A stretch of 32,630 nucleotides of DNA from a bacterium (GTDB lineage: Bacteria; Zixibacteria; MSB-5A5; GN15; FEB-12). Below, one piece after another: positions 14,136-32,115 of this stretch. The DNA lies in NCBI GenBank assembly GCA_030605565.1, contig JAUWIB010000058.1:1-32630 (forward strand), in the 5' to 3' direction. The translations under genes were made by a program, and so were the position numbers. Within the stretch, counting starts at the first letter, position 1; the number at the start of each line of letters is the position of its first letter. The notes under the pieces are model-generated. The model saw only the letters and a program-made list of their open reading frames with translations, was not told where the DNA came from and searched no databases.

Positions 14136-15023
14136 TCACGTAGAGAGCCCGGCCATTTGCATGAAAGTTTCGGCCTTGACGTACTCTTCACGCAGGAGAC
14201 TGCCGAACTCTTCCAGGTCGGGCTCGGTCACGTTCAGATAGTCGGCCACGCCATCTTGAAGCGAGCCGATTATGTAGGTGTCCTGTGGATCGTAGAAAGT
14301 CCGCTTGGCAACAAAATCACCGAGGTGTATTAGATGGGCGATCGGCAACTCGTCCTCGCTCAACATGGGACGATGATGCAAGCTGATTGAGTCGGCGAGG
14401 CGCTTAGGCAGCTTCCACTGGAGGGCCAGAAAGGCGCCGATTTGGGCGTGGTTAAACCCGAGCACATTATCTTCGAGGATATAATCTTCTGTCTCGTTGT
14501 TGCTCTCTCTCGCCGCTTTGAGCATGGCATTTTCGTTCGGCAGGAAACAGGAAATAACCATCTTGCCGACATCATGCAACAGTCCCGATGAGAAGGCTGT
14601 GTCCGGGTCGATCATACCGCGGCTCTTGACTCGTCTGGCCAGCAGTCGACTACAGAAGGCGGTCGCCAGTGAATGACGCCAGAAGGATTCCTGGAATTCC
14701 TGGTCGACATTGTTGCCCTTGAACATATCGAGCACGGAGGCCGACAGGACAAGGTTCTTGATCGCCTCCATGCCAACGATCAACACCGCGTGCTTGACCG
14801 ACTCAATCTCGCGGTTAAGTCCGTAAAATGCGGAATTGGTTAGCTTGAGAACCTTCGCGGACATGGCCGGATCCTCAGCCAGCACGGCGGCAACCCGACC
14901 GGCGGACGAATTCGGGTCGGCCATCACTTTCTGAATCTGGTGAAAAACGATTGGTGGCGTGGGCAGGTTTCGGATATTCGAAACAACCAGCTTTACCTTA
15001 TTGTCGATTGTCGCCGTATCCAT
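14136..15023 (-). CDS. HDOD-domain protein in the flagellar operon
   Basis: 295 residues from the ATG at 15023, or 305 from a GTG at 15053; neither start has a well-placed ribosome site. HDOD domains are HD-like but lack full metal-dependent phosphodiesterase ligands and usually act as protein-interaction or signalling modules. Visible features: LPTPPIVFHQIQKVM, EDPAMSAKVLKLTNSAFYG, the hydrophobic HAVLIVGMEAIKNLVLSAS helix, FWRHSLATAFCSRLLARR, and SGLLHDVGKMVI. This HDOD domain fills the whole protein with no added output domain. It overlaps the 3' end of flgM by 26 nt (56 with the GTG start) and is the last gene of the fliC-to-flgM block, suggesting a motility role. That role is inference. 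Confidence 0.88.
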   Translation of the reverse strand: MDTATIDNKVKLVVSNIRNLPTPPIVFHQIQKVMADPNSSAGRVAAVLAEDPAMSAKVLKLTNSAFYGLNREIESVKHAVLIVGMEAIKNLVLSASVLDMFKGNNVDQEFQESFWRHSLATAFCSRLLARRVKSRGMIDPDTAFSSGLLHDVGKMVISCFLPNENAMLKAARESNNETEDYILEDNVLGFNHAQIGAFLALQWKLPKRLADSISLHHRPMLSEDELPIAHLIHLGDFVAKRTFYDPQDTYIIGSLQDGVADYLNVTEPDLEEFGSLLREEYVKAETFMQMAGLST

Positions 15024-15477
15024 GGTTGTATTCTGAGTCTCCCTGTTCTTCACCGATATCGGTCAGTTTCTCAGCCAACCGGTCGGCGATTTTCTCCCGA
15101 ACATCCGGTTGCTCGTAAAACCCTGATTCCATACGATGTCGTATTGTCTCAAGTCTTGCCTTGTCAAGCCGTCGTCCTCCGGAGTCATTCTGTGCTGCTT
15201 CGACGCGATATCCGTCTGTTGCCCTATGGGCTACACGTCTATCGCGCAACCGCTCACGGTCGTATCCGATCCGGCCGCAAGGTTCGGGGTCGACTGCTCC
15301 ACCGGCCCCGGAAAGCTGTACAATGTCTTGTCGGCTCCGGGCCTGGTCGGCACTCGACCTGGACTGGGCCGGACTTTTCTCAAGATCGCCAGCCTCCCGA
15401 GTTTTTCCGGGTTGCCCCGACGGCGCCTGGCTCGGTCGGCCTAGTACCTGGCTTTCGTGATAGGGTCCTATCTTCAT
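14998..15477 (-). CDS. flgM: Anti-sigma-28 factor FlgM (long form)
   Basis: 159 residues from the ATG at 15477, beginning MKIGPYHES like many FlgM proteins. FlgM binds FliA (sigma-28) and is exported once the hook is finished, releasing late flagellar genes. The C-terminal part shows the sigma-binding pattern: DIVQLSG, then RLDKARLETIRHRMESGFYEQ and REKIADRLAEKL. Typical FlgM is about 90-100 residues; here a charged, low-complexity insertion separates the two conserved parts and a hydrophilic tail follows. The frame is open to 15531, but that start lacks family similarity. It overlaps the downstream HDOD gene. The assignment rests on the motif, size class and flagellar context. Confidence 0.75.
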   Translation of the reverse strand: MKIGPYHESQVLGRPSQAPSGQPGKTREAGDLEKSPAQSRSSADQARSRQDIVQLSGAGGAVDPEPCGRIGYDRERLRDRRVAHRATDGYRVEAAQNDSGGRRLDKARLETIRHRMESGFYEQPDVREKIADRLAEKLTDIGEEQGDSEYNHGYGDNRQ

Positions 15478-15554
15478 AGCATCACCATAAACCTTCCTAT
15501 TTCGGTGACGATCGTCTCGAATCTCATCCACTATACTATAACAGCCACCTGACT

Positions 15555-18925: not shown

Positions 18926-21148
18926 CTAACCGAAGAGCGACAGAACCACCTGCGGAACCTGGTTAGCCTGGGCAAGCATGGCCGTGCCGGCCTGCATCAG
19001 GATCTGGTTCTTGGTGAATTCCGACATCTCCGCGGCCATATCGGTGTCACGAATCTGCGACTCGGAAGCCGTAAGGTTCTGAGCGGCAACACGCAGGTTT
19101 CTCAGGTTGGATTCCAGAGTGTTCTTCTGGAAGCTACCGAGAGTACCACGAGTCGTAGACACTTCGTTAATAGCCTGGTCAATGACGCTCTGAGCATCCT
19201 GGGCGCCCTGGGCGGTAGTAACATCAATCCCCGACAGCGATGTGAACATGTTGCCGGCAATGTTATTACCAAGGGCCGTGCTGGCCATGTTGCGCAGAGA
19301 GATGCGAGCTGTCTGGCCGACATTACCACCAATCTGGAAGACCAGTGACTGGTCGAGGTTGCTGATGGTCTCGTTACCGCCTGAGGAAGTCAGGCCGTAA
19401 TTGACCACAATCGACTCTGTCCGATCAGCATTGTAAATCGTCGCATTGACACCGGCCGTGGCGGTAGTCGCCGGACCACCGTCGAGTTGGACAGCATACC
19501 GGATCGCTGTCGCAGTCAACAGCATGTTGCCGGTGTTAATGCCGGTTTCCGTTCCACTCATAGTTGCTTCGGCGTACTGGATCGACAAAGTGCTGCGAGT
19601 GGAGTCACCGATAGCGGCTGAACCCAGAGTAAAGGTCTGCTGAGTACCACCGTCGCTGGCTTTGATCGAAGAGATGGTGTTGCTGTAACCGTTGAAGTTC
19701 ACAAGAGCGTCAACACCGGTCGTTGCCACACTATCGGTACCGCCAAAGCCCAGAACATTCTGGAGTTCTTCGGTGTCGGCGCCAACTGACACCTGGGTGA
19801 CTGAGAAGTCAGAACCTTCGTCAACCGTCTGAATCTGGATCTTGTCGGTTCCTTCCAGAACAGCCTGGATATCACTGGTTGCACTGGCATAAGTGGCGCC
19901 GGCAATCGCGGTGTTAATCGCCGTGATCAGAGTAGCCATGTCGCTGTAGGTACCATTGGCAACTGTGATGGTTTCAGCGGTCAGAGTACCCGCCAAATTG
20001 GTAACGGTTGTGAAATCCAGGGTTGCGTCGGAGATACCACGATCTGACCCCTGCGCAAACGCCACAACAGTGTTAGCCGCAGTCGTCGAAGAGGCTTCGG
20101 TGTGGATCGCGAACTGAGCACCCTTGTTGGCCGCTACGAATTGCAGCGACTGGTTTGCGTCAACAGCAACCGTCAACTGAGAATCGACCTTACCGGCCAG
20201 GTTGGTGTTAGCATCCAAAGCAGCCTGAACAGCAGTTTCAATAGTGGCTGCATCGGCGTCGTCGGCTATGGTGACCGTGATGGCTTCGGTGATTTGCGTT
20301 CCACCATATTCCTGGTAACTGATATTGAAGGTATAGTTACCTGAATAGTCACCGAGGGCGCTGTTGGCGCCTGTGGTTGACATACCCGCTGCCGCCGTCA
20401 GGGTGGCGGTGGCATCGGCATCAGTCACAGCAGCCTCGACTGTAATACCTTGACCCCAGGCATCCGTGATAGCGATAGAATCGGTTGTGCGCTTGGCTAC
20501 ATCAGAAGCCTGAACGACGTCGAGATTGTGAATGCCTTCGGCCAGGTTGTACGGATCGCCATCGGTGTTGTTAAGCGAAATACCCAGCGAAGTCGTATTC
20601 AGGGTGGCAGCTGCGTCGGCTGTTTTCACCGCGGCCAGCGCATAGGTACCGGTCCCGAGCTGAGAATTGGTCAGGGTCACAAGGGATGTGTTTGCGGTGG
20701 TGATAGTGGCCACATTCTCCTTGGTGCCATCCAGAAGGTTCTTGGTGCCAAACTGGGTGTTGACTGCGATACGATCGATGGTCGCAATCGCGTTCTTAAT
20801 CTCCGCCTGGTCGGCAGCCAACTGGTCGGCGTCGTTGAAGCCTTCGTTGGCGGCGTGAATGGCCAATTCCCTCATTCCAGTTAACAGAGTGTTCATCTCA
20901 GTGAGCGCACCCTCAGCAGTCTGAATCATGTTGATACTGCCTTCGGAGTTGCCTATCGCGCGGTTAAGACCGGCGATCTGAGCCCGGAACTGCTCACTGA
21001 TAACCAGACCGGCAGGATCATCTGATCCTTTGTTGATCCGGAAACCGGATGACAGCTTCTGCATCGAACTGGTGAGAGCGTTTACGGTGCCCACCAGGTT
21101 ACGATGCGCGTTCATGGCCGCCAAGTTGTGGTTAATGCGAAGTGACAT
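18926..21148 (-). CDS. fliC: Flagellin with enlarged surface domain
   Basis: 740 residues; typical flagellins are about 270-500. The conserved D0/D1 ends are complete: the N-terminus MSLRINHNLAAMNAHRNL, LSSGFRINKGSDDPAGL and GALTEMNTLLTGMRELA (to about 145), and the C-terminus from about 650 with FQKNTLESNLRNL, ASESQIRDTDMAAEM and the final QVPQVVLSLFG. Between them lie about 500 residues rich in Thr, Ala, Asp and Gly, forming surface domains with repeated 'TLTAxTITVANGTYSD'-like segments that resemble flagellin hook-IN modules. No Cys is evident. A strong AAGGAGGA site lies before the ATG. Expression is expected from the sigma-28 promoter at 21366-21392. Confidence 0.98.
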   Translation of the reverse strand: MSLRINHNLAAMNAHRNLVGTVNALTSSMQKLSSGFRINKGSDDPAGLVISEQFRAQIAGLNRAIGNSEGSINMIQTAEGALTEMNTLLTGMRELAIHAANEGFNDADQLAADQAEIKNAIATIDRIAVNTQFGTKNLLDGTKENVATITTANTSLVTLTNSQLGTGTYALAAVKTADAAATLNTTSLGISLNNTDGDPYNLAEGIHNLDVVQASDVAKRTTDSIAITDAWGQGITVEAAVTDADATATLTAAAGMSTTGANSALGDYSGNYTFNISYQEYGGTQITEAITVTIADDADAATIETAVQAALDANTNLAGKVDSQLTVAVDANQSLQFVAANKGAQFAIHTEASSTTAANTVVAFAQGSDRGISDATLDFTTVTNLAGTLTAETITVANGTYSDMATLITAINTAIAGATYASATSDIQAVLEGTDKIQIQTVDEGSDFSVTQVSVGADTEELQNVLGFGGTDSVATTGVDALVNFNGYSNTISSIKASDGGTQQTFTLGSAAIGDSTRSTLSIQYAEATMSGTETGINTGNMLLTATAIRYAVQLDGGPATTATAGVNATIYNADRTESIVVNYGLTSSGGNETISNLDQSLVFQIGGNVGQTARISLRNMASTALGNNIAGNMFTSLSGIDVTTAQGAQDAQSVIDQAINEVSTTRGTLGSFQKNTLESNLRNLRVAAQNLTASESQIRDTDMAAEMSEFTKNQILMQAGTAMLAQANQVPQVVLSLFG

Positions 21149-21365: not shown

Positions 21366-21392
21366 TAATCGGCAGAAACTTGAACAACTTTA
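21366..21392 (-). promoter_or_regulatory. Sigma-28 (FliA) promoter of fliC
   Basis: On the minus strand TAAAGTTG (21392-21385), an 11-nt spacer, and GCCGATTA (21373-21366). Against the enterobacterial consensus TAAAGTTT-N11-GCCGATAA this is 14 of 16. Transcription would start near 21358, leaving a leader of about 210 nt. The spacing and flagellin downstream make this a confident call. Confidence 0.88.
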
Positions 21393-21623: not shown

Positions 21624-21649
21624 ATTAGGTTGCCGTGGTCGCTGGCAGG
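21624..21649. repeat. 26-bp direct repeat, copy 1
   Basis: Starts ATTAGGTTGCCGTGGTCG and continues CTGGCAGG; identical to 21830-21855. The copies are 206 bp apart and enclose three hairpins. Confidence 0.9.
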
Positions 21650-21829: not shown

Positions 21830-21855
21830 ATTAGGTTGCCGTGGTCGCTGGCAGG
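21830..21855. repeat. 26-bp direct repeat, copy 2
   Basis: Identical to 21624-21649 and in the same orientation. It closes the 232-bp hairpin-rich cassette. Confidence 0.9.
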
Positions 21856-22107: not shown

Positions 22108-22141
22108 TTGGCCCGATTTCACGAAAGTGAAGGGATTTGTA

Positions 22142-22654
22142 ATGGGGTCTAATGAGCTTGAGACACAGTTGGAACTTGGACTCAGTCCGGTTCAGAAAGC
22201 AACAACGCCTGACCGTTCGCATGGTTCAATGTCCCAACGGGAAGGGCGCCGGGCCGACAAAACAACCGAACATACGATTCTGATAGTGGACGACGAGAAA
22301 TCGATCCTCAACGCAATTAAGAGGTCGCTGTCCGGCGACAATTACCAGATCCTTACCGCAGACAATCCCCAAGAAGCTTTGGGACTATTAGCCACCAATC
22401 AGTTTTCCGTGATTGTCAGCGATTATACCATGCCGAGCATGTCTGGAGCGGATTTCCTGTGTATCGTCAGGAAAAAGCAACCACGTTGCATTCGCATTAT
22501 GCTGACCGGAGGCACCGAAACCGAAAATGTACCAAACGAAATAGCTGAAAGCATTCTGCACTGTCAGAGGTTCATTACCAAACCGTGGGATGATGACCAA
22601 CTACGGCTGGCCATCCGAGAGTGTATTGTCCAGTACGAGGATTCCGGCAAGTAG
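22142..22654 (+). CDS. Single-domain response regulator (KPW type)
   Basis: 170 residues from the ATG at 22142, which has AAGGGA 6 nt upstream; an in-frame GTG at 22127 is less likely. A poorly conserved, hydrophilic lead of about 43 residues precedes one REC domain: ILIVDDE (acidic pair D50/D51), the phospho-acceptor D94 in VSDYTMPSMSG, T122 in MLTGG and K147 in FITKPWDDDQ. There is no output domain. It is the only plus-strand gene of the signalling cluster and points toward the HDOD gene, which it meets tail to tail. The receiver resembles the four others in the cluster (shared KPW), so it is probably a duplicate acting as a phosphate sink or adaptor. Partner unknown. Confidence 0.88.
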   Translation: MGSNELETQLELGLSPVQKATTPDRSHGSMSQREGRRADKTTEHTILIVDDEKSILNAIKRSLSGDNYQILTADNPQEALGLLATNQFSVIVSDYTMPSMSGADFLCIVRKKQPRCIRIMLTGGTETENVPNEIAESILHCQRFITKPWDDDQLRLAIRECIVQYEDSGK

Positions 22655-22768: not shown

Positions 22769-23608
22769 TCAGGGGCTGCTGAAGATATGCTCGGCGTCAT
22801 CGATTTCCGAGAGGGCATCGGTCAGAATGACTTCAAGGTCACTAATCTCCAGATTCAACTGTTGCCATGCAGCACAAGAGAAATCGGTAGCGTAGCTCGA
22901 AGCGCTGAAACCTACGGCCATCGTGTGACACAGCAGGTCCGCCATTGACACTGCCCCCACCAGCAACGAATAAGCTTCCGGCGCCTGTTCGGGACAATGG
23001 TGTTTCCCTATCATGTGTGTAATACTCTTCGGGAAATTCCATTTTTCTGCAAGCAGGGCGCCAACTGTCTGGTGATCTACGCCAAAGAATTCGGCTTCAT
23101 CCTCAATATCGGTGACGGCCGCTCTTTCATAATAGAAAGCATTGAATTTCTCAGCATCAGCGCTGGCAAACACAAGTCTCCCCACATCGTGCAAGAGTCC
23201 CCCCATCATGGCCTCGTTTTGGGTGTCCTTACTCTGGCCCCGACACAGATGCTTGGTGATAGTACCGACCCCAAAACTGTGCCGCCAGAAGTCATTTATG
23301 TCAAGAACCGAATCGCCGGGGGCAAGGGTGTGAAACACCGCAGTCGACAGCGCCAATTGATGTAAGGCGTTGAAACCCAGAATAGCTACTGCCTCTTCGA
23401 TCGAAGATACTCCCTGGCTAATCCCGTAGAAGGGAGAATTCACCAGTTTGAGCACCCTGGCCACAATGGCCGTGTCTTTCTCCAGAATCTGCGCCACTTC
23501 ACGGCTGCCCACATCATCCCGTTTGGTAAGTGACTGCAACCTGATCACAACGCCCGGCATGGCCGGCAGATCCTTGAGTCTTTCAGCTATTGAGTTGCAG
23601 GTTTCCAT
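22769..23608 (-). CDS. HDOD-domain signalling protein
   Basis: 279 residues, the HDOD domain filling the whole protein. Visible: LPAMPGVVIRLQSL, EKDTAIVARVLKLVNSPFYG, SIEEAVAILGFNALHQLALS, FWRHSFGVGTITKHL and GGLLHDVGRLVF. It is a paralogue of the HDOD protein at 14136-15023, sharing RVLKLxNSxFYG and FWRHS. HDOD proteins commonly act next to two-component and cyclic-di-GMP proteins. It is the last gene of the signalling operon; its ATG directly follows the stop of the 57-residue protein, which implies coupled translation. Confidence 0.9.
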   Translation of the reverse strand: METCNSIAERLKDLPAMPGVVIRLQSLTKRDDVGSREVAQILEKDTAIVARVLKLVNSPFYGISQGVSSIEEAVAILGFNALHQLALSTAVFHTLAPGDSVLDINDFWRHSFGVGTITKHLCRGQSKDTQNEAMMGGLLHDVGRLVFASADAEKFNAFYYERAAVTDIEDEAEFFGVDHQTVGALLAEKWNFPKSITHMIGKHHCPEQAPEAYSLLVGAVSMADLLCHTMAVGFSASSYATDFSCAAWQQLNLEISDLEVILTDALSEIDDAEHIFSSP

Positions 23609-23782
23609 CTAATTATTCCTTAGCGTATCGGACGAATCACCCAGCCGCTTGCGAAAGACCTTCTTGGCAATCTCCGCCATCTGCTGAACCTCCTCATGGT
23701 GCAACACCATCGAGAGGTATTTCTCAACATGCTTGTCGAATTCTTCCGCCGTCTTCGGGGCAATCGCCTGTCTTTTCTGCAT
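23609..23782 (-). CDS. 57-residue helical protein of unknown function
   Basis: Predicted 57 residues from the ATG at 23782 (GAGGG 8 nt upstream); a TTG at 23797 would add five. Highly charged, probably two helices: KTAEEFDKHVEKYLSMVLHHEEV and QQMAEIAKKVFRKRL, with no membrane segment or known motif that I recognise. It sits 48 nt after a receiver gene and its stop codon is immediately followed by the HDOD ATG. The tight packing argues it is real. It could be a small adaptor binding the neighbouring receiver or HDOD protein; that is inference. Confidence 0.65.
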   Translation of the reverse strand: MQKRQAIAPKTAEEFDKHVEKYLSMVLHHEEVQQMAEIAKKVFRKRLGDSSDTLRNN

Positions 23783-23830: not shown

Positions 23831-24337
23831 TCAGTTATCGATAATGTATGCGCCATCCTCTGACAGTCTCTTGTCGGCAATCCCCGGATATTGGCGCTCA
23901 AGGTCACGCAAGGCAGCCTCGCCATCAATAACTTTTTTCTTAAGCTTCTCGTTCTCAAGTAGTACCATGCGATAGGCCAGAGCTTGCTTAACACACACAA
24001 GAAGCTCGAAGTCATCCCAGGGTTTGGTAAAGAAGCGGTAGATTTCGCCGCTGTTGATCGCATTTTTGGCCACCTCGATATCATCCGCCCCAGTAACCAT
24101 GAACCGCACCACAAAAGGATGAGTCTCCCTGACTACCCGCAACAGGTCCGTGCCCGACAGTCCGGGCATGTTCTCGTCCGTGATGATCATATCTACCTTT
24201 TCGTTGGTCATCATCTCAATGGCCTCTTTGGCCGAACCGGCCAGCAACAGGTCGTAGCCTTCAGGACGAAACAGTCGCGCCATGGCCTTAAGGATATTCG
24301 GCGAATCGTCAACCAGGAGCAAAGTAAACTCAGACAT
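23831..24337 (-). CDS. Response regulator with C-terminal helical tail
   Basis: 168 residues. REC domain with LLLVDDS, phospho-acceptor D54 in IITDENMPGLSG, T82 in MVTGADD and K105 in FFTKPWDDFE. A coiled segment (about 120-148) leads to a short tail ending ERQYPGIADKRLSEDGAYI. I recognise this type of tail from other receivers near HD-GYP/HDOD genes, but its role is unclear. The ATG lies inside the 3' end of the REC-HD-GYP gene (8-nt overlap). There is no DNA-binding domain, so any output is through protein contact. Confidence 0.88.
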   Translation of the reverse strand: MSEFTLLLVDDSPNILKAMARLFRPEGYDLLLAGSAKEAIEMMTNEKVDMIITDENMPGLSGTDLLRVVRETHPFVVRFMVTGADDIEVAKNAINSGEIYRFFTKPWDDFELLVCVKQALAYRMVLLENEKLKKKVIDGEAALRDLERQYPGIADKRLSEDGAYIIDN

Positions 24338-25643
24338 GGGCAGACTCTTTCTTTGTAGCCTTTGCCTCTATTATCACTTGTATCATTTCGGGAATGGGGT
24401 CAACCTTTGCAATTTTCCGGATGCGGCTAATCATTCCCTTGGAAAGTTTGGCCCCTTTCGGGACCAGAAACATACCGTTCTTCGTGTAAACATCGGCGGC
24501 TATTGTCATATTTTCGCTGAGGCTATCCGGATCAACCACTTGCTTTTGGGCTATATCTTCGAAGGTGAACTCATTGGCGCCGTCACATTCAATGAACCTC
24601 TTCACGAGTTCCGGGTCGAATTTCGTACCAGAGTTTCGCACCAGGTGAGCCGTTGCTTCCCTTAAGGTATCCTTATTGGGGTAACCGTGGGCAAAAGCAA
24701 AACGTTCAAAGGAGTCGGCGACACGAATCAGTCGAGAACCCAGCGGAATCTGCTGTTCCACCAGTCGATCGGGATAACCTGTTCCATCGTAGTTCTCGTG
24801 GTGGTTTCTTATCAATACGCCCACCTCTTCAAAACCGCTTATCTGATACACCAGGGTCTGGCCAACCTCGGGATGTTTGGCCAGCAGTTCACGGTCCGAT
24901 GGCGTGTATTGCTCCGGCGGTTTCGAAACAATGTTGTCGGGAACTGTTATCTTCCCGATGTCGTGCAGGTATGCCGCCACCACGACGTCTTGCATTTCCG
25001 TTCCCTGCAAATCAAGGCTTCTCGCCAGACGCTTGATTAGGGCGCCCACTCGCTGAGAATGGCTCCCTACTTCTCGGTAACGCAATTCCAGCATGGTCGA
25101 GAAGGTTTTGATGGTTTGCATGAAACTATCGGCGAGTTCCTGATGTCTCTCACGGATTTCCTCTGTCTGCTCCGCCACTCGACTTTCCAGCGACTCATTC
25201 AGTTCCTTGAGTTGATCATTCTGCTTTGTAGTGAGTTGCAACAAGTTGCGGTTTTCAGACTTTATGGTATATAATTCCAGTGATTCCTTGACACGACTCA
25301 ACAGCAGGTTGTTGTCCCAGGGCTTGTTGAGGTAGTAGGCAATTGCCCCATCGTTGATAGCAGCCACGACGGCGTCAATGTCGGCGTAACCGGTTAGTAG
25401 AATGCGCACCGCGTCAGGCTGTGATTCGCGCGATCGATGAAGGAATTCCACGCCGGTCATCTTCGGCATACGCTGGTCGGATATGATCAGAGCCACCTCA
25501 TGCTCAGACAATAGCGTCAGCGCCTCCGGGCCGCTGTTAGCCGAGAGTATTGTAGCGTTAAAGTCCGATAAGGCTCTTCTTAGGGATGCGATGATCCCGT
25601 CTTCGTCATCTACCAATAGAATCGTCGGTTTATTCTCACTCAT
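24330..25643 (-). CDS. REC-HD-GYP cyclic-di-GMP phosphodiesterase (RpfG-like)
   Basis: 437 residues from the ATG at 25643 (GGAG 5 nt upstream); a GTG at 25649 overlapping the previous stop is possible. REC domain at about 1-120: LLVDDED, D56 in IISDQRMPKMTG, T84 in LLTGYAD and K107 in YLNKPWDN. A coiled linker (about 125-175) follows, then HD-GYP: GSHSQRVG, YLHDIGKITVPD with H227/D228, and HHENYDGTGYP near 281-291. These match the family's required residues, so the enzyme should hydrolyse cyclic-di-GMP to pGpG or GMP. The C-terminal part has MTIAADVYTKNGMFLVPKG, a module often found after HD-GYP. It is the only clear enzymatic output in the cluster. Confidence 0.95.
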   Translation of the reverse strand: MSENKPTILLVDDEDGIIASLRRALSDFNATILSANSGPEALTLLSEHEVALIISDQRMPKMTGVEFLHRSRESQPDAVRILLTGYADIDAVVAAINDGAIAYYLNKPWDNNLLLSRVKESLELYTIKSENRNLLQLTTKQNDQLKELNESLESRVAEQTEEIRERHQELADSFMQTIKTFSTMLELRYREVGSHSQRVGALIKRLARSLDLQGTEMQDVVVAAYLHDIGKITVPDNIVSKPPEQYTPSDRELLAKHPEVGQTLVYQISGFEEVGVLIRNHHENYDGTGYPDRLVEQQIPLGSRLIRVADSFERFAFAHGYPNKDTLREATAHLVRNSGTKFDPELVKRFIECDGANEFTFEDIAQKQVVDPDSLSENMTIAADVYTKNGMFLVPKGAKLSKGMISRIRKIAKVDPIPEMIQVIIEAKATKKESAHV

Positions 25644-25645
25644 GT

Positions 25646-26164
25646 TCACTCCACGACTTCCCGGACCAGGTGGTGTCCTGTACCGTCGGTCTTAACACCG
25701 TCCCCGATTTCTACAGCTTTGCTCCTTCTGGCCTCATCAGTCGTTGTATAATTCTCATTTTGACCTGCGTCGCCATCCGGCTTAACGTAAGTCGTCAGAA
25801 GGTGGCGAACCGACTCTGACAAAACCTCGGAATCCCACGGTTTTATGAAAAGCTTCGCAATCCGGGCGCGGTAAATAGCCATATCAAATGCTTCGAGGTC
25901 TGTGTACGCAGTCAGCATTACCCGGACGGTTGCGGGCGCAATCTGTCGGGCTAATGAGAGAAACTGCCAGCCACTCAGCCCGGGCATCTTTTCATCGGAA
26001 ATCACCAAGCTTATTTGCCGTTCCCTTAACACCTTCAGCGCCTCGTAAACATCTGTAAAGGTCATTAACTCGGCGTCGAGCTTATGTAAGTCCCTCCGCA
26101 GTGCGCTCAGCACCTGCTCGTCATCATCAACCAGCATGATCACATGTCCGGTATCTTCAGACAT
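25646..26164 (-). CDS. Response regulator with short unstructured tail
   Basis: 172 residues from an ATG at 26164 that overlaps the REC-PAS stop by 8 nt. REC domain with MLVDDDE, phospho-acceptor D57 in VISDEKMPGLSG, T85 in MLTAYTD and K108 in LFIKPWDSE. After about residue 125 comes a charged, probably disordered tail (GDAGQNENYTTTDEARRSK). No output domain. The frame is open to 26191, but that would put more of it inside the upstream gene. Likely a phosphotransfer or adaptor receiver. Confidence 0.85.
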   Translation of the reverse strand: MSEDTGHVIMLVDDDEQVLSALRRDLHKLDAELMTFTDVYEALKVLRERQISLVISDEKMPGLSGWQFLSLARQIAPATVRVMLTAYTDLEAFDMAIYRARIAKLFIKPWDSEVLSESVRHLLTTYVKPDGDAGQNENYTTTDEARRSKAVEIGDGVKTDGTGHHLVREVVE

Positions 26165-27029
26165 CTTTCGCTCTGCTTTCCTCGACTTCAACCGCTGAGA
26201 GTTCGGTTGTGAGTCCCAAGCCGGTTTCGTTCACCAATAGACAGATCACACCACCCCCATCCGGTAGTGGCCTGGCGATCAGTCCGAGCTTACAAGTCCC
26301 CTGGATCGTGTCCCGGTAGACCTGCTGCGACGATACTGTGGTTACAATGTTGGCTAACACATCGGGCTCGAAGGCGCGATCGGCAGGTCCCTGCAGGCTC
26401 AGTTTCCCTGCCCCCAAATACTTATGAGCCTTCTCATTGGAGTAGACTACTGAGGTCTCAGGATCAATCCCCACCACACCCGCCGGCAAGAGATCCAAAA
26501 TGCGGTGGGCAATAGCGAGGGCGCGGTTCTTCATCCCCAGATCTTTGGTGCGCTCCTGGACCTTGCGCTCCAACTCTTGCGCGACATCCTCCAGCTCTTT
26601 GTTTCGCTTAAGCAGTTCCTCATTGAGGTGCCGGTTCTCCTGCACCAGGCTGTATTGCTCGAATGCTCGCATGACTGTCGTCAGAAGATCCTGGTCATTC
26701 CAGGGTTTGGATATGAACTTGTAAACCTGGCCGTCGTTGATAGCCTCTACGATGGCTATTACATCAGCATAGCCGCTGAGAATAATCCTGATAGTGTCGG
26801 GGTGAAGCTCTTTGACACGTTTCAAGAATTCGACCCCGTTCATTTCCGGCATTCGGTAGTCGGAGACAACAAGCTGTATTGAAGACTCGTTCTCGAACAT
26901 CTTCAGTCCCTCATCGCCTGACTCGGCAGTCAGGACGCGATAGTCTGTCTCAAACAGAAGTCGCTTGAGGGATCTCAGTACATTGCTTTCGTCGTCGACA
27001 ATGAGTAAGGTCTGACGATCGTCACTCAT
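26157..27029 (-). CDS. REC-coiled coil-PAS response regulator
   Basis: 290 residues. REC domain with LLIVDDES, D57 in VVSDYRMPEMNG, S85 in ILSGYAD (where Thr is usual) and K108 in FISKPWND. A long coiled coil follows (about 125-170: ENRHLNEELLKRNKELEDVA), then a PAS-like domain (about 172-268: ILDLLPAGVVGIDPETSVVYSNEKA). This is the same REC-plus-coiled-coil opening as the HD-GYP protein, but with PAS in place of the enzyme. It overlaps the end of the upstream kinase gene by 8 nt, a strong coupling sign. PAS output may dimerise or bind a ligand; which one is unknown. Confidence 0.88.
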   Translation of the reverse strand: MSDDRQTLLIVDDESNVLRSLKRLLFETDYRVLTAESGDEGLKMFENESSIQLVVSDYRMPEMNGVEFLKRVKELHPDTIRIILSGYADVIAIVEAINDGQVYKFISKPWNDQDLLTTVMRAFEQYSLVQENRHLNEELLKRNKELEDVAQELERKVQERTKDLGMKNRALAIAHRILDLLPAGVVGIDPETSVVYSNEKAHKYLGAGKLSLQGPADRAFEPDVLANIVTTVSSQQVYRDTIQGTCKLGLIARPLPDGGGVICLLVNETGLGLTTELSAVEVEESRAKDV

Positions 27030-28551
27030 CTTTTATACCCTTGAGTGGGAGCGAAATCGTAAACTCGGCGCCCTGGCCGATTTCGCTCTTCACATCGATC
27101 TGTCCACCATGCTTCTTGATGATGTCAAAGGCCAGGCTAAGACCCAAGCCGGTCCCTTTGCCGACATCCTTGGTCGTGAAAAAGGGCTCAAAAAGTTTGC
27201 CCATGTTCTCAAGTGGGATTCCCGTCCCGTTATCTGCAATTGACACATACATATTACTATCATCGGCCCATGTCTTGATCCTAATCAGTCCCTGGTCATG
27301 TGTAATGGCATGGCCGGCATTCATAAGCAAATTCATGAATACCTGATTCAACTGATTCGCCATGCAGTAAATGTCCGGAATATCGCCGAATTCCTTCTCG
27401 ACTTTGCACTTGTACTTCAGTTCGTTCCACACAATATTCAGTGTGCTTTGAATGCCGTCATTGAGATTGGCATTCCCCTTTCCAGCCTTATCCACTCGCG
27501 AGAAACTCTTAAGATCCGCCACGATATCCCGGATACGCCCGGCGCCCTCGATCGACTCCTCGATAGCCTCGCCAAAATCGCTTGTTATGTCCTTCATTTC
27601 CTCGTTCAGGGTGTCATTACAGAGCAGGCTTTCAATGTGTTTGATTATCCGTCGCAGGTACTTTTGCATGGTGTTGAGATTGGAGTTGATGAAACCGATG
27701 GGATTGTTGATTTCGTGAGCTACTCCGGCCGCCAGCGTGCCAATGGCCGCAAGTTTGTCCGATTGAACGAGTTGGTCCCGACTTCGGTGGATATCGCTAA
27801 CATCCTGAACGAGACCCACCACCCCATTCACCAAACCCTGACTGTCATGCAAGGGTACCTTTGTGGTGGAGACCCACATAATGTCACCATTATCGTTCCG
27901 TATCTGCTTTTCGTGGTCATCCACTCGACTATCTCTATCCATCACAGCCTCGTCGGCTTTGTGATACTCTTCAGCAGCGTCCCCGGGCAAAATATCATAG
28001 GCTGTCTTGCCGATAATCTCACTGGAGGTCTTCCCGATGGAGTCGCAGAACGCCTTATTGACCGCTACATATCGATGATCGATATCTTTCAAATAGACCA
28101 TTGCAGGCACCGTATCTAACATCGCCATATACTGGAAAACCGTCTGTTGAAATTGTTGTTCGGCGCGCAGACGTTTTGTGATGTCCCTGGCGATGGCTAT
28201 TATATATTCTTCGTGGTCGAGTTCAGTGAGACTTAGTCTGACCTCCACTGGGAAGGTCGTCCCATCTTTGCGTTCGTGCACACTTTCAAGAGTGATTGGG
28301 TTGTGGTTTTTCAATTCCTGCACGTATTTGACAAGAGGCTCCGGAAAGGTGAAATCCGGCACTATGTCAACTACACCCATATTCAGTAGCTCTGTTTGAG
28401 AACAACCAAGGCATTGCCAAGCGCACTTGTTTGCATCCAGAAACTTCCCAGTCTCGGGATCAATGATATAAATAGCATCGCTGGTTCCGTCCAGCAAAGC
28501 TCTCAACAGGCGCAGATCGCATCTCGTGTTTGATTCCATTGTTGCACTCAT
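27022..28551 (-). CDS. Cytoplasmic PAS-PAS sensor histidine kinase
   Basis: 509 residues. PAS1 at about 13-128 (ALLDGTSDAIYIIDPETG), PAS2 at about 140-255 (MLDTVPAMVYLKDIDHRYVAVN), then the dimerisation/H-box with His279 in AAGVAHEINNPIGF, and an ATPase domain with N-box NQVFMNLLMNAGHA, G1 DNGTGI, F-box FEPFFTTK and G2 GKGTGLGLSL. No membrane segment or signal peptide, so it should sense an internal cue. The HisKA-to-ATPase half is closely similar to the PhnD-type kinase upstream (for example NEIVW/NQLKY-like IVWNELKYKCKVEK against IVWNQLKYTCTIEK), a recent paralogue. ATG with AAGGG 5 nt before it; it follows the larger kinase gene by 2 nt. Confidence 0.95.
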   Translation of the reverse strand: MSATMESNTRCDLRLLRALLDGTSDAIYIIDPETGKFLDANKCAWQCLGCSQTELLNMGVVDIVPDFTFPEPLVKYVQELKNHNPITLESVHERKDGTTFPVEVRLSLTELDHEEYIIAIARDITKRLRAEQQFQQTVFQYMAMLDTVPAMVYLKDIDHRYVAVNKAFCDSIGKTSSEIIGKTAYDILPGDAAEEYHKADEAVMDRDSRVDDHEKQIRNDNGDIMWVSTTKVPLHDSQGLVNGVVGLVQDVSDIHRSRDQLVQSDKLAAIGTLAAGVAHEINNPIGFINSNLNTMQKYLRRIIKHIESLLCNDTLNEEMKDITSDFGEAIEESIEGAGRIRDIVADLKSFSRVDKAGKGNANLNDGIQSTLNIVWNELKYKCKVEKEFGDIPDIYCMANQLNQVFMNLLMNAGHAITHDQGLIRIKTWADDSNMYVSIADNGTGIPLENMGKLFEPFFTTKDVGKGTGLGLSLAFDIIKKHGGQIDVKSEIGQGAEFTISLPLKGIKDE

Positions 28552-28553
28552 GA

Positions 28554-31500
28554 TTACCCTTCCACCACATCTGCCTCAGCAGGCTCAACAGCCGTCAGGC
28601 TCGGCTCTATTGGCAGCGAGACTATAAACTCTGTTCCCTGCCCGACCACGCTGTTCACATCGATTCTCCCGCCGTGGTCCTTAATGATATCATGACTCAG
28701 GCTGAGACCCAACCCGGTGCCCTTGCCGACATCTTTGGTGGTGAAGAATGGATCGAATATCTTGTCTATATGCTCCTCAGAGATGCCGCAGCCGTCATCT
28801 TTGATCGCTACATAGACCTGCTCGTCATCTGCCCAGCTTCTGATCCGGATGGTTCCTGAGCCATCCCCAATAGCCTGTCCGGCATTTAGCAGCAGGTTCA
28901 TGAATACTTGATTCATCCTGTTGGGATGGCAATAGACCCCCGGTAATCGGCCGAGGTCTTTTTCAATCGTACAAGTGTATTTCAACTGATTCCACACAAT
29001 ACTCAGCGTGCTTTCAAGCCCGGCGTTAATGTCTGCCAGTTCCATTTCCCCGGTATCGACTCGCACGAACCCCTTCAGATCCGCCACGATTTTTTTCACT
29101 CTGTCGGCGCCTTCGATGGACTCAGCCACAGCATCGCCGAAATCTGTCACTATTTCCGTGATTTCCCTTTGTTCATCTGAGTCGTGGCCACCGTTGCTTT
29201 CCAGGAAGTGCCTGATCTTTGTCAGGTACTTTTTCATGGTGTCAAGGTTTGAAGATATAAAGCCGATGGGGTTGTTGATTTCGTGGGCGATCCCGGCTGC
29301 CAACTGTCCAATGGAGGCCAGCTTCTCCGACTGCACCAATTGGGACTGCAGTGCCGCCCTCGTCTCTTCAGCTTGCTTGCGCTCGGTGATGTCACTAATA
29401 GCCAACAGGGCTCGTACGTGATTGATACCGTTTGTTTCTGTTCGCGTCACAGAGAATCTTATGTCAACATCAATATGTTGACCGGACAGGGTTTTTACCT
29501 CTGCTTCGGATTCAAATCGCGTCCCGCCTTCGGCAAGCGTGATCAATTCTTCTTTAAAAACTTCAAATGAGGCTTCAGTAAATGTTCTATCTATACTGCC
29601 TAATAATTCTTCCTTGCTCTCGGCTTCGTGTAATTCCAGCGTGGATTTGTTGACATCCAAAATCTGGATTTTTTGTGCGCAGGTTGTCAATTCATCAGGA
29701 TTCTCCTCGAAATACTCACGAAAATCTGAGACACCTTTTGTTTTGAGCATATCCATATAAGCTTTGACTTCTGAGAAATCTTCCTCCCACAATGAGATCG
29801 GCGAATCTTCGAATAAGAGATGGTATCGATGCTCGCTTTCTTTCAGCGCCTCCTCAGCCTGCTTGCGTTCGGTGATGTCCTTGAATGCATTGAAGAACTT
29901 GATCATACCGTCTCGAGATTCTTGTTTTACCGAACTGACAGAACACCAGAGCAGACTGCCGTTTCTACGCTTGAGCCGCACCTCGAGATTATGAACCGAG
30001 CCTCCTTTGAACAGTTCAACGAACCGCTCTCTGTCTTGCGGGTCGTAGTAGTGAGCAGTGGCAGACACACTCAAGAAACTCTCCTTCGAATCATAGCCAA
30101 GCATATCAACTGCAAGGTCATTGGCTTCCAAGACCTGACCTTCAGGAGTACTGACGGAAATACCGACGGGAACACTTGACATCAAGTATTTGAGTCTTTG
30201 CTCCGAATCCTGCAGTGCTTTCTCCGCCTGCTTACGCTCGGTGATGTCGAGAATATAAGAGATAAAGTGTAGGGGATTGCCATGCCCATCTCGTACAATC
30301 GTACTGGAAACCTCTCCCCAGATAACATGTCCGTCCTTGTGTATATATCGCTTTATGAACCTTTGATGGTCAATCTTGTCTGATAACGCACTCTGGATGA
30401 ACCGGGGGATAACATCCAAGTCCTCTGGATGAGTGATGTCTTTGACGGTCATACTTTCAAGCTCTTCTTTGGTATAACCGTACATTCTGCACATCTGTTT
30501 ATTGACCGATGTAAAACGGGCATCGATATCCATCAGACAAATCGCTAAATTCGCGGTCTCAAACGCAAGTTGGAAATGCTCATTGGCTTCTCTTGTCGCC
30601 TCCTCCGCCTGTTTGCGCTTGACAATCTCATCCTGAGTTATGGTCAAGGCCTCGCTAAGTCTCAGAGCAAGTCTAAAGACATAAGCTAAGATCATAATAA
30701 CTATGGACACTACAACGATTACCCCTGCGATCCACAGCCAGTACTTCCTAACCACATCTTCTGCTGTTATTTTGCCGTAATCCTTGTAAGGACCGATTCG
30801 GAGCTCTTTGAGGCAATCATGAACAGGTTGATAATTGAGAGGGATTGTCCAGCCAACACACCTTGCTGCTATGGCGGCGGGATCATCGGAAGACATCTCA
30901 AGTAAAGCGACAGAGACTCTCTCTGCTAGTATGTCGGAAGTATGTTTAACCTTGGCAAACGGCCACTCCGGATATGTTTCCGTAGAGTGAAAGAAAGGAT
31001 AGTCGCGAGTGTGCTTATGGATATGATCGTAAGCAATTACTTGAAAGTCCTCCAACCGAATCTTCCCTTCTAACGACATTTGCTCAAGTGTGTTGGTTCG
31101 GACGGAACCGGCATCCACCCTGCCATCACGTACGGCGTACACAACCGCGTCATGTGTGCCGCCAAAACTTAGACTGGCAAAATCTCGGTAGGGGTCAATC
31201 CCGTGTTCTTTCAGTTCCCTCCAACTCGTCTGCCATCCGCCGAATGACTCTTCTTCAACGGCCATGAAGCTTTTGCCCCGGAGATCATCAAAGTATTTGA
31301 TGTCATTGCGATTGGCCCGGGAGAAAATCACTCCGCCAGAGACTGTAAACTCTTCACCTGCATAGAGATATTTTAAGGTTGCTATCCGACTGGACCCATA
31401 ATAATTCTCCAGTGCGACGTAGATAGAGGAATTGGTCAGGACAAAATCAACCTCTCCGCGTTCGACACTTGGGTAGACTTCATCAAAAGTGAGCGGCACA

Positions 31501-31784
31501 ATAGTGAAAGAATATCCGGGGATTCGTTCCGTTAGGTAATCGGCTGTCGGTCCCCATATTTCCTGACATCTTTCCACGCCGCGTTTGGCCAGCACACCAA
31601 CTTTGACAGTTCGATATTCGGCCGCGGTATCTATTCCGGCGGTCTTATGATCCTCGTTTGCATTTGATGTGCTGCTGACAGATGAAAAAGTAAGTGCTAA
31701 AGCTGCACAAAACAGAATAGTAGATCGGAACAACCTACATGGCCCTCTTAGAATCTTGATATTTCTCCTCTTTTGGTATCTCAT
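28554..31784 (-). CDS. PhnD-like periplasmic sensor histidine kinase with three PAS domains
   Basis: 1076 residues from an ATG at 31784 (the frame is open to a TTG at 31817). A signal or anchor segment at about 19-40 (FRSTILFCAALALTFSS) is followed by a PhnD/phosphonate-binding-like domain (about 57-310: VKVGVLAKRGVERCQEIWGP, LTFDEVYPSVERGEVDF, SFGGTHDAVVYAVRDGRVDAG). A membrane helix lies at about 349-371, then PAS1 (400-520), PAS2 (525-640) and PAS3 (650-803), each ending in DITERKQAE, then His834 in AAGIAHEINNPIG, and an ATPase domain with FDPFFTTK and GKGTGLGLSL. Such periplasmic binding-protein kinases (TtrS is one example) sense small oxyanions or other ligands. The ligand here is unknown. 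First gene of the cluster, behind a sigma-28-like promoter. Confidence 0.95.
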   Translation of the reverse strand: MRYQKRRNIKILRGPCRLFRSTILFCAALALTFSSVSSTSNANEDHKTAGIDTAAEYRTVKVGVLAKRGVERCQEIWGPTADYLTERIPGYSFTIVPLTFDEVYPSVERGEVDFVLTNSSIYVALENYYGSSRIATLKYLYAGEEFTVSGGVIFSRANRNDIKYFDDLRGKSFMAVEEESFGGWQTSWRELKEHGIDPYRDFASLSFGGTHDAVVYAVRDGRVDAGSVRTNTLEQMSLEGKIRLEDFQVIAYDHIHKHTRDYPFFHSTETYPEWPFAKVKHTSDILAERVSVALLEMSSDDPAAIAARCVGWTIPLNYQPVHDCLKELRIGPYKDYGKITAEDVVRKYWLWIAGVIVVVSIVIMILAYVFRLALRLSEALTITQDEIVKRKQAEEATREANEHFQLAFETANLAICLMDIDARFTSVNKQMCRMYGYTKEELESMTVKDITHPEDLDVIPRFIQSALSDKIDHQRFIKRYIHKDGHVIWGEVSSTIVRDGHGNPLHFISYILDITERKQAEKALQDSEQRLKYLMSSVPVGISVSTPEGQVLEANDLAVDMLGYDSKESFLSVSATAHYYDPQDRERFVELFKGGSVHNLEVRLKRRNGSLLWCSVSSVKQESRDGMIKFFNAFKDITERKQAEEALKESEHRYHLLFEDSPISLWEEDFSEVKAYMDMLKTKGVSDFREYFEENPDELTTCAQKIQILDVNKSTLELHEAESKEELLGSIDRTFTEASFEVFKEELITLAEGGTRFESEAEVKTLSGQHIDVDIRFSVTRTETNGINHVRALLAISDITERKQAEETRAALQSQLVQSEKLASIGQLAAGIAHEINNPIGFISSNLDTMKKYLTKIRHFLESNGGHDSDEQREITEIVTDFGDAVAESIEGADRVKKIVADLKGFVRVDTGEMELADINAGLESTLSIVWNQLKYTCTIEKDLGRLPGVYCHPNRMNQVFMNLLLNAGQAIGDGSGTIRIRSWADDEQVYVAIKDDGCGISEEHIDKIFDPFFTTKDVGKGTGLGLSLSHDIIKDHGGRIDVNSVVGQGTEFIVSLPIEPSLTAVEPAEADVVEG
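29369..30248. repeat. Three copies of a 25-bp PAS-linker repeat
   Basis: Near-identical 25-bp segments at 29369-29393, 29855-29879 and 30224-30248 encode the DITERKQAE linkers of the large kinase. They share GCTCGGTGATGTC or GTTCGGTGATGTC. They may result from PAS duplication and could recombine. Confidence 0.7.
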
Positions 31785-31885
31785 TTGGCTTTGCACCCTC
31801 TTTTCAGTGAACACCAAAAGGCACTGAAGCCGGTGAAGAACATGTCCACCGCATTCACGATTTACTTATAGACACTCTTATCAGT

Positions 31886-31912
31886 TTATCGGTGAATTGT
31901 GCAAGAACATTA
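31886..31912 (-). promoter_or_regulatory. Sigma-28-like promoter of the signalling operon
   Basis: On the minus strand TAATGTTC (31912-31905), an 11-nt spacer, and ACCGATAA (31893-31886). This matches TAAAGTTT-N11-GCCGATAA at 13 of 16 positions with the exact spacing of the fliC promoter. Transcription would start near 31878, about 95 nt before the large kinase ATG. A sigma-70 TATAAT also overlaps its -35 but has no good partner. Confidence 0.65.
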
Positions 31913-31983
31913 TAGGTGATTGTATTCGGAGTTGGTACAGAGCATGACCCTATTGTTGATTATGTATCGTTCCCGCACTGTGG

Positions 31984-32058
31984 GCGGCAGACGTCCTCGT
32001 CTGCCCCTTGGTTACCTTGGATACGTCCTTCAAACGGGCAGACCGGGAGGTCTGCCGC
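31984..32058. repeat. BIME-like inverted hairpin pair, copy B
   Basis: Hairpin 31986-32005 is GGCAGACGTCCTCGTCTGCC. Hairpin 32037-32056, read on the minus strand, is GGCAGACCTCCCGGTCTGCC, differing at three of 20 positions, two of them a compensated stem pair. Both carry a GCGGCAGAC outer arm, so the whole element is an imperfect inverted repeat. Same family as 21759-21823. Confidence 0.7.
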
Positions 32059-32115
32059 GCACAATACTACTCAAAGTCTAATGAGTCTGGCAGGTCGAAA
32101 CCCCTGGTCCGAAGA

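Follow-up and report, generated by a model that had tools for sequence, protein, structure and literature searches.

The window, the whole stretch of 32,630 nucleotides analyzed here, lies on contig C106 of a 3.39 Mb Zixibacteria genome assembled in 152 contigs (G000). Domain matches showed that the kinase/HD-GYP cluster named in the initial annotation is real: eight minus-strand genes run from position 31784 to 22769, overlapping or separated by very short gaps, except for 48 nt before the seventh gene. The first gene (28554–31784) encodes a sensor histidine kinase of 1076 aa containing a PhnD-like periplasmic binding domain (PF12974) together with PAS, HisKA and HATPase_c domains (Pfam). Its open reading frame was listed as starting at TTG 31817; the start is most likely ATG 31784, because the protein read from there has a signal-peptide-like N-terminus and the same start codon is present in G006, a species of the same genus. 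Based on domain matches, the next genes encode a PAS-PAS histidine kinase (27022–28551), a response regulator receiver with a C-terminal extension (26157–27029), a receiver-domain protein (25646–26191), a receiver joined to an HD-GYP domain (24330–25649) and a single-domain response regulator (23831–24337). The seventh gene, an ORF of 57 aa read from the sequence (23612–23782), matched no family in Pfam or NCBIfam, and the packed run ends with an HDOD-domain protein (22769–23608). The fifth gene product is a predicted c-di-GMP phosphodiesterase (HD_5); its HD and HHExxDGxGYP motifs are intact (HDIGK, HHENYDGTGYP), and it scored 444.8 bits against NF053512, the NosR-family response regulator c-di-GMP phosphodiesterases (cut-off 400). 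No recognized DNA-binding domain was found by the domain search in any receiver of the cluster.

The flagellin gene fliC (18926–21148, minus strand, Flagellin_N and Flagellin_C) lies in the same window. A plus-strand receiver-domain gene (22127–22654), convergent with the cluster, is located between the HDOD gene and fliC, and an identical 26-nt direct repeat occurs in this interval at 21624–21649 and 21830–21855, 206 nt apart. At the other side, the contig end (32340–32630) holds the start of a DUF772 transposase, oriented opposite to the cluster, and inverted repeats of the GGCAGAC type (31979–32063) separate it from the promoter block described below. The source genome encodes FliA (TIGR02479, 257 bits, above the curated cut-off). 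The initial annotation had also listed flgM in the window, and this gene is probable: a divergent candidate (14998–15531, minus strand) matched the FlgM family TIGR03824 with E = 0.0016 at 19.2 bits, where the curated cut-off is 40.75; it had no Pfam match and adjoins a weak FlgN match.

In relatives the gene order of the flagellar locus is flgN-flgK-csrA-flgL-fliW-TPR protein-(in some, another gene)-fliC-fliD. G001 and G002 have fliC immediately after the TPR gene, with no insert, and in G006 the kinase comes after the TPR gene. In our window the cluster precedes fliC, and the matching flgL-fliW-TPR genes are found at the end of another contig of the same genome (C15). This gene order indicates that the cluster is an insertion between the TPR gene and fliC in two sister species, in G000 across a presumed contig join. 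The TPR protein on C15 (L106:183–2882), between fliW and the fliC side, carries a family-2 glycosyltransferase domain and may be a flagellin glycosyltransferase. Near the kinase orthologs on the other Zixibacteria contigs examined, no recognized flagellar genes were found. A cluster inserted into a late flagellar locus might simply be transcribed from upstream flagellar promoters, any local site being a relic. Such read-through would fit the position of the G000 and G006 clusters, which sit between fliW/TPR and fliC in an interval that holds no insert in G001 and G002. However, an opposite-strand IS-type transposase and inverted repeats separate the kinase of the window from anything upstream, and orthologs outside flagellar loci still carry sigma-28-like sites; we consider read-through very improbable.

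A sigma-28-like promoter had been proposed about 95 nt before the kinase gene, with the spacing of the fliC promoter. The site TAATGTTCTTGCACAATTCACCGATAA is indeed located at 31886–31912 on the minus strand with an 11-nt spacer as in the fliC site, and 101 nt separate the end of its -10-like box from ATG 31784, which fits the proposed distance. Read as TAATGTTC-N11-ACCGATAA (minus strand, 31912–31886), it has three mismatches to the E. coli sigma-28 consensus TAAAGTTT-N11-GCCGATAA. The -10-like box ACCGATAA (31886–31893; lineage consensus GCCGATWA) is of the GCCGATAA type; this A-for-G variant was also found in the flgN promoter of one relative and is present in the E. coli ycgR and fliDST promoters (PMC4183435, Table 2). 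The spacing, 11 nt between boxes of 8 nt, is likewise that of sigma-28 promoters. The -35-like box TAATGTTC (31905–31912) has the core TAATG instead of the TAAAG type. It departs from the lineage consensus T-W-A-A-G, taken from 27 fliC promoters and the flgN promoters, at position 4, where all 27 fliC and all flgN reference sites have A. Real FliA sites of E. coli include ACCGATAA and imperfect -35 boxes, and sites with other -35 departures were recovered by ChIP; many intragenic sites are bound by FliA, yet the expression of the gene is unchanged (PMC4183435).

The reference for this comparison came from the lineage itself. The fliC promoter of the window, TAAAGTTG-N11-GCCGATTA (21366–21392, minus strand), has two mismatches to the E. 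coli consensus and an 11-nt spacer and is conserved in relatives; in 27 of them, fliC promoters of the form TWAAG-N14-TGCCGAT are strikingly constant and lie at about -200 to -245. The promoters before flgN form a second conserved set, in which TAAAG never changes but the -10 varies (TGTCGATAA, GACCGATAA and others, including ACCGATAA). In G000 the flgN promoter (C15:7747–7773, minus strand) precedes flgN-flgK-csrA-flgL and overlaps the end of the preceding gene (L106). The lineage matrix was built from the fliC and flgN promoters of relatives, leaving out the window's own and the G006 reference sites. A matrix from fliC alone was rejected as too strict, as it penalized -10 variants accepted at flgN. 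The sequence GGCCGATAT, conserved before fliA in many relatives, was not used as a promoter either; it reads as a probable conserved in-frame peptide. The lineage-specific sigma-28 matrix is usable for annotating flagellar regulons in Zixibacteria. Related patterns were seen elsewhere: pilT-like genes of G001 and G013 (L144, L151), loci chosen by that same pattern, have TCAAG-N14-GCCGATAA about 85 nt upstream, and a Tll0287-like/PAS histidine kinase of G007 (L044:565–2496) has TAAAG-N15-GTCGATAT 72 nt upstream and is possibly another sigma-28-linked kinase.

Ranking of the kinase site within its own genome, a check suggested in the initial annotation, did not place it with the flagellar promoters. 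With the fliC-derived matrix the kinase site scored 7.8 and fliC 27, and about 600 positions per genome score as well as the kinase site. With the fliC and flgN matrix it reached 13.1 bits out of 24.5, compared to 22.7 for fliC and 21.8 for flgN, and again does not rank with the flagellar promoters of the genome. The same 13.1 bits were reached by 7 of 208 upstream regions in the genome sample, and about 128 such positions are expected genome-wide, figures for the whole genome being extrapolated from a 399-kb sample and from pattern searches. Regions scoring equally high include those upstream of aspartyl/asparaginyl-type tRNA synthetase and aminopeptidase genes. At up to three mismatches to the E. 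coli consensus, 0.16 matches are expected in the shuffled window; the whole genome contains 36, versus 27 for the reversed control. This is a chance-like level and uninformative for ranking. Searching the genome for patterns with correct spacing gave few extra intergenic flagellar sites; a pattern with a spacer one base too long served as an off-spacing comparison only. The idea that CCGATAA serves as a promoter element throughout this genome was rejected: on the sense strand it occurs in 8 upstream regions, on the other strand in 4. The site is not distinctive on its own. These numbers, together with a -35 that breaks an invariant position, are what would be seen if the resemblance were a background match and the operon were started by another, unrecognized promoter or by read-through. 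We regard such a coincidence as unlikely, since the two boxes are identical in G006, within a block more conserved than coding DNA, and such sites are overrepresented before the kinase orthologs even when that of the window is left out.

The block around the site (31851–31948, minus strand) is identical between G000 and G006 in 87 of 96 gap-free columns (91%); the adjoining coding sequence is 76% identical, and third codon positions 65%. G006 alone shares the arrangement of the window. There the site reads TAATGTTCTTGCATAATTCACCGATAA; both boxes are identical and a single change falls in the spacer. Sigma-28 alone gives no reason for one feature of the block: a TTGCAYAAT stretch within the spacer matches the boxes in conservation, and in the form TTGNAYAAT it is common to G000, G006, G063 and G060. 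In addition, a TATAAT at 31909–31914, which overlaps the -35-like box, is kept in G000 and G006, and G063 retains the block with a spacer 2 nt shorter, a deletion that breaks the sigma-28 spacing. The block might accordingly be a promoter or operator of another kind, with TATAAT as a sigma-70 -10 or with TTGCAYAAT as part of a regulator site, and CCGATAA as part of that. The genome does use TTGACA-N17-TATAAT, with a clear peak at spacing 17; however, the TATAAT lacks a -35 at usable distance, and upstream of the kinase no sigma-70 promoter was found, the best arrangement having 8 of 12 matches. Moreover, in G082, G026 and G061 a sigma-28-like site is present although the remainder of the block is missing. 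A block of this other kind therefore seems improbable to us.

Conservation beyond the sister species was uneven but on balance favorable. With the reduced matrix, the best site upstream of the kinase ortholog scored 20.3 in G082 (TAAAGAGAGAATAGCTCAATGCCGATAG, near-consensus), 15.4 in G026, 13.6 in G061, 13.1 in both G000 and G006, and 10.5 in G060, and all six sites lie 91–138 nt before the kinase start. Low scores were obtained for G054 (6.3), a relative in the same order, and for G063 (5.5), G113 (3.9) and G017 (2.2), and upstream of the kinases of G054, G017 and G113 no good sigma-28-like site was found. The two boxes are exact in G006; in 4 of 9 independent relatives the motif is absent or disrupted. 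All ortholog genomes yielded a FliA except G017 (620 contigs; absence not proven), whose kinase also lacks a site. At least 13 bits were reached by 4 of 9 independent kinase orthologs but by 2.3% of 353 control genes (p = 3e-5; 3 of 8 orthologs and p = 0.0006 without the window's site), in a test for which the motif class had been viewed beforehand, some ortholog starts were picked by inspection, spacers of 10–12 were accepted and n was 9. The scores of orthologs and controls also differed by the Mann-Whitney test (p = 0.0002; 0.0008 without the window's site). Of the 9 independent orthologs, 7 have RYCGATAW on the sense strand and none has it on the opposite one, against a background of about 0.12 per region. 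The relatives suggest, at the level of sequence, that the operon is tied to the flagellar program.

The original proposal that a sigma-28 promoter drives the cluster stands in part. The site itself, the boxes of G006, the enrichment among orthologs, the presence of FliA and the lack of a visible sigma-70 promoter speak for it; the rank with the fliC matrix and the loss of the motif in 4 of 9 relatives speak against it. We consider it about as likely as not that the site works as a sigma-28 promoter. Our leading reading, which we favor only slightly over its negation, is that 31912–31886 is a weak, variant sigma-28 (FliA) promoter driving an eight-gene operon, which is raised with flagellin and lowers c-di-GMP. 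A good -10 (ACCGATAA), the correct 11-nt spacing and the sub-optimal -35 TAATG would together make a weak FliA promoter, and all eight tightly packed genes (31784 to 22769) would be driven from it as one operon. Export of FlgM would free FliA-RNA polymerase, and the operon would be raised together with flagellin. Sensing a periplasmic ligand, the kinases would then regulate the HD-GYP enzyme through its receiver, and c-di-GMP would be lowered. We infer FliA use of the site, co-transcription of the genes, the path of phosphotransfer and a connection to filament assembly. Production of the operon only after hook completion, as initially suggested, would be an extrapolation of this scheme, as would gating of c-di-GMP hydrolysis by the state of the filament.

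A broader and rather doubtful version is that the PhnD-type kinase family of Zixibacteria carries its own sigma-28 promoter and joins the late flagellar regulon wherever the gene lands. In the two sister species it would have landed beside fliC with an HD-GYP/HDOD module, placing ligand-controlled c-di-GMP hydrolysis under the filament checkpoint.

Pairing of PhnD-like sensors with HD-GYP proteins is recurrent in Desulfobacterota, at L217:4920–7619, L206:4863–8354 and other loci. In many of these bacteria a periplasmic binding domain of the window's kind is joined directly to GAF-HD-GYP (L217); elsewhere it opens a kinase gene, or forms part of a hybrid kinase, with a receiver-HD-GYP gene alongside or following. 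In contrast to Zixibacteria, no sigma-28-like enrichment was found upstream of 58 Desulfobacterota PhnD-type homologs. Because Desulfobacterota fuse or pair both, the idea that HD-GYP is the natural output of the sensor is supported; a literature search on PhnD sensors with HD-GYP found nothing. The HD-GYP protein of the window resembles the NosR family (NF053512) in scoring above its cut-off, but the name comes from nitric-oxide systems, whereas the neighboring sensor is PhnD-like.

In E. coli, yhjH encodes an EAL enzyme. FliA drives yhjH (pdeH) and ycgR there (PMC4183435). The likeness to our operon lies in a c-di-GMP phosphodiesterase or receptor being expressed along with the late flagellar genes, under a sigma-28 promoter. 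The yhjH promoter, however, is near-consensus and serves no kinase operon, whereas the Zixibacteria HD-GYP domain is fused to a receiver and encoded by the fifth gene of an operon that opens with a sensor kinase and whose -35 is poor. The c-di-GMP phosphodiesterase gene bifA of Pseudomonas putida also has a FliA site and is partly controlled by FliA, and no such site was found upstream of P. aeruginosa bifA (PMC5300878). It differs in enzyme and context, and its FliA dependence was tested experimentally. Since yhjH, ycgR and bifA are known, the tie between c-di-GMP breakdown and the late flagellar class is already established in E. coli and Pseudomonas, and a sensor-kinase/HD-GYP operon in Zixibacteria would be a new example. 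If true, it would suggest that the wiring may travel with the gene, and FliA control of c-di-GMP breakdown, known for individual enzymes, would reach an entire sensor-kinase/HD-GYP operon of an uncultured phylum.
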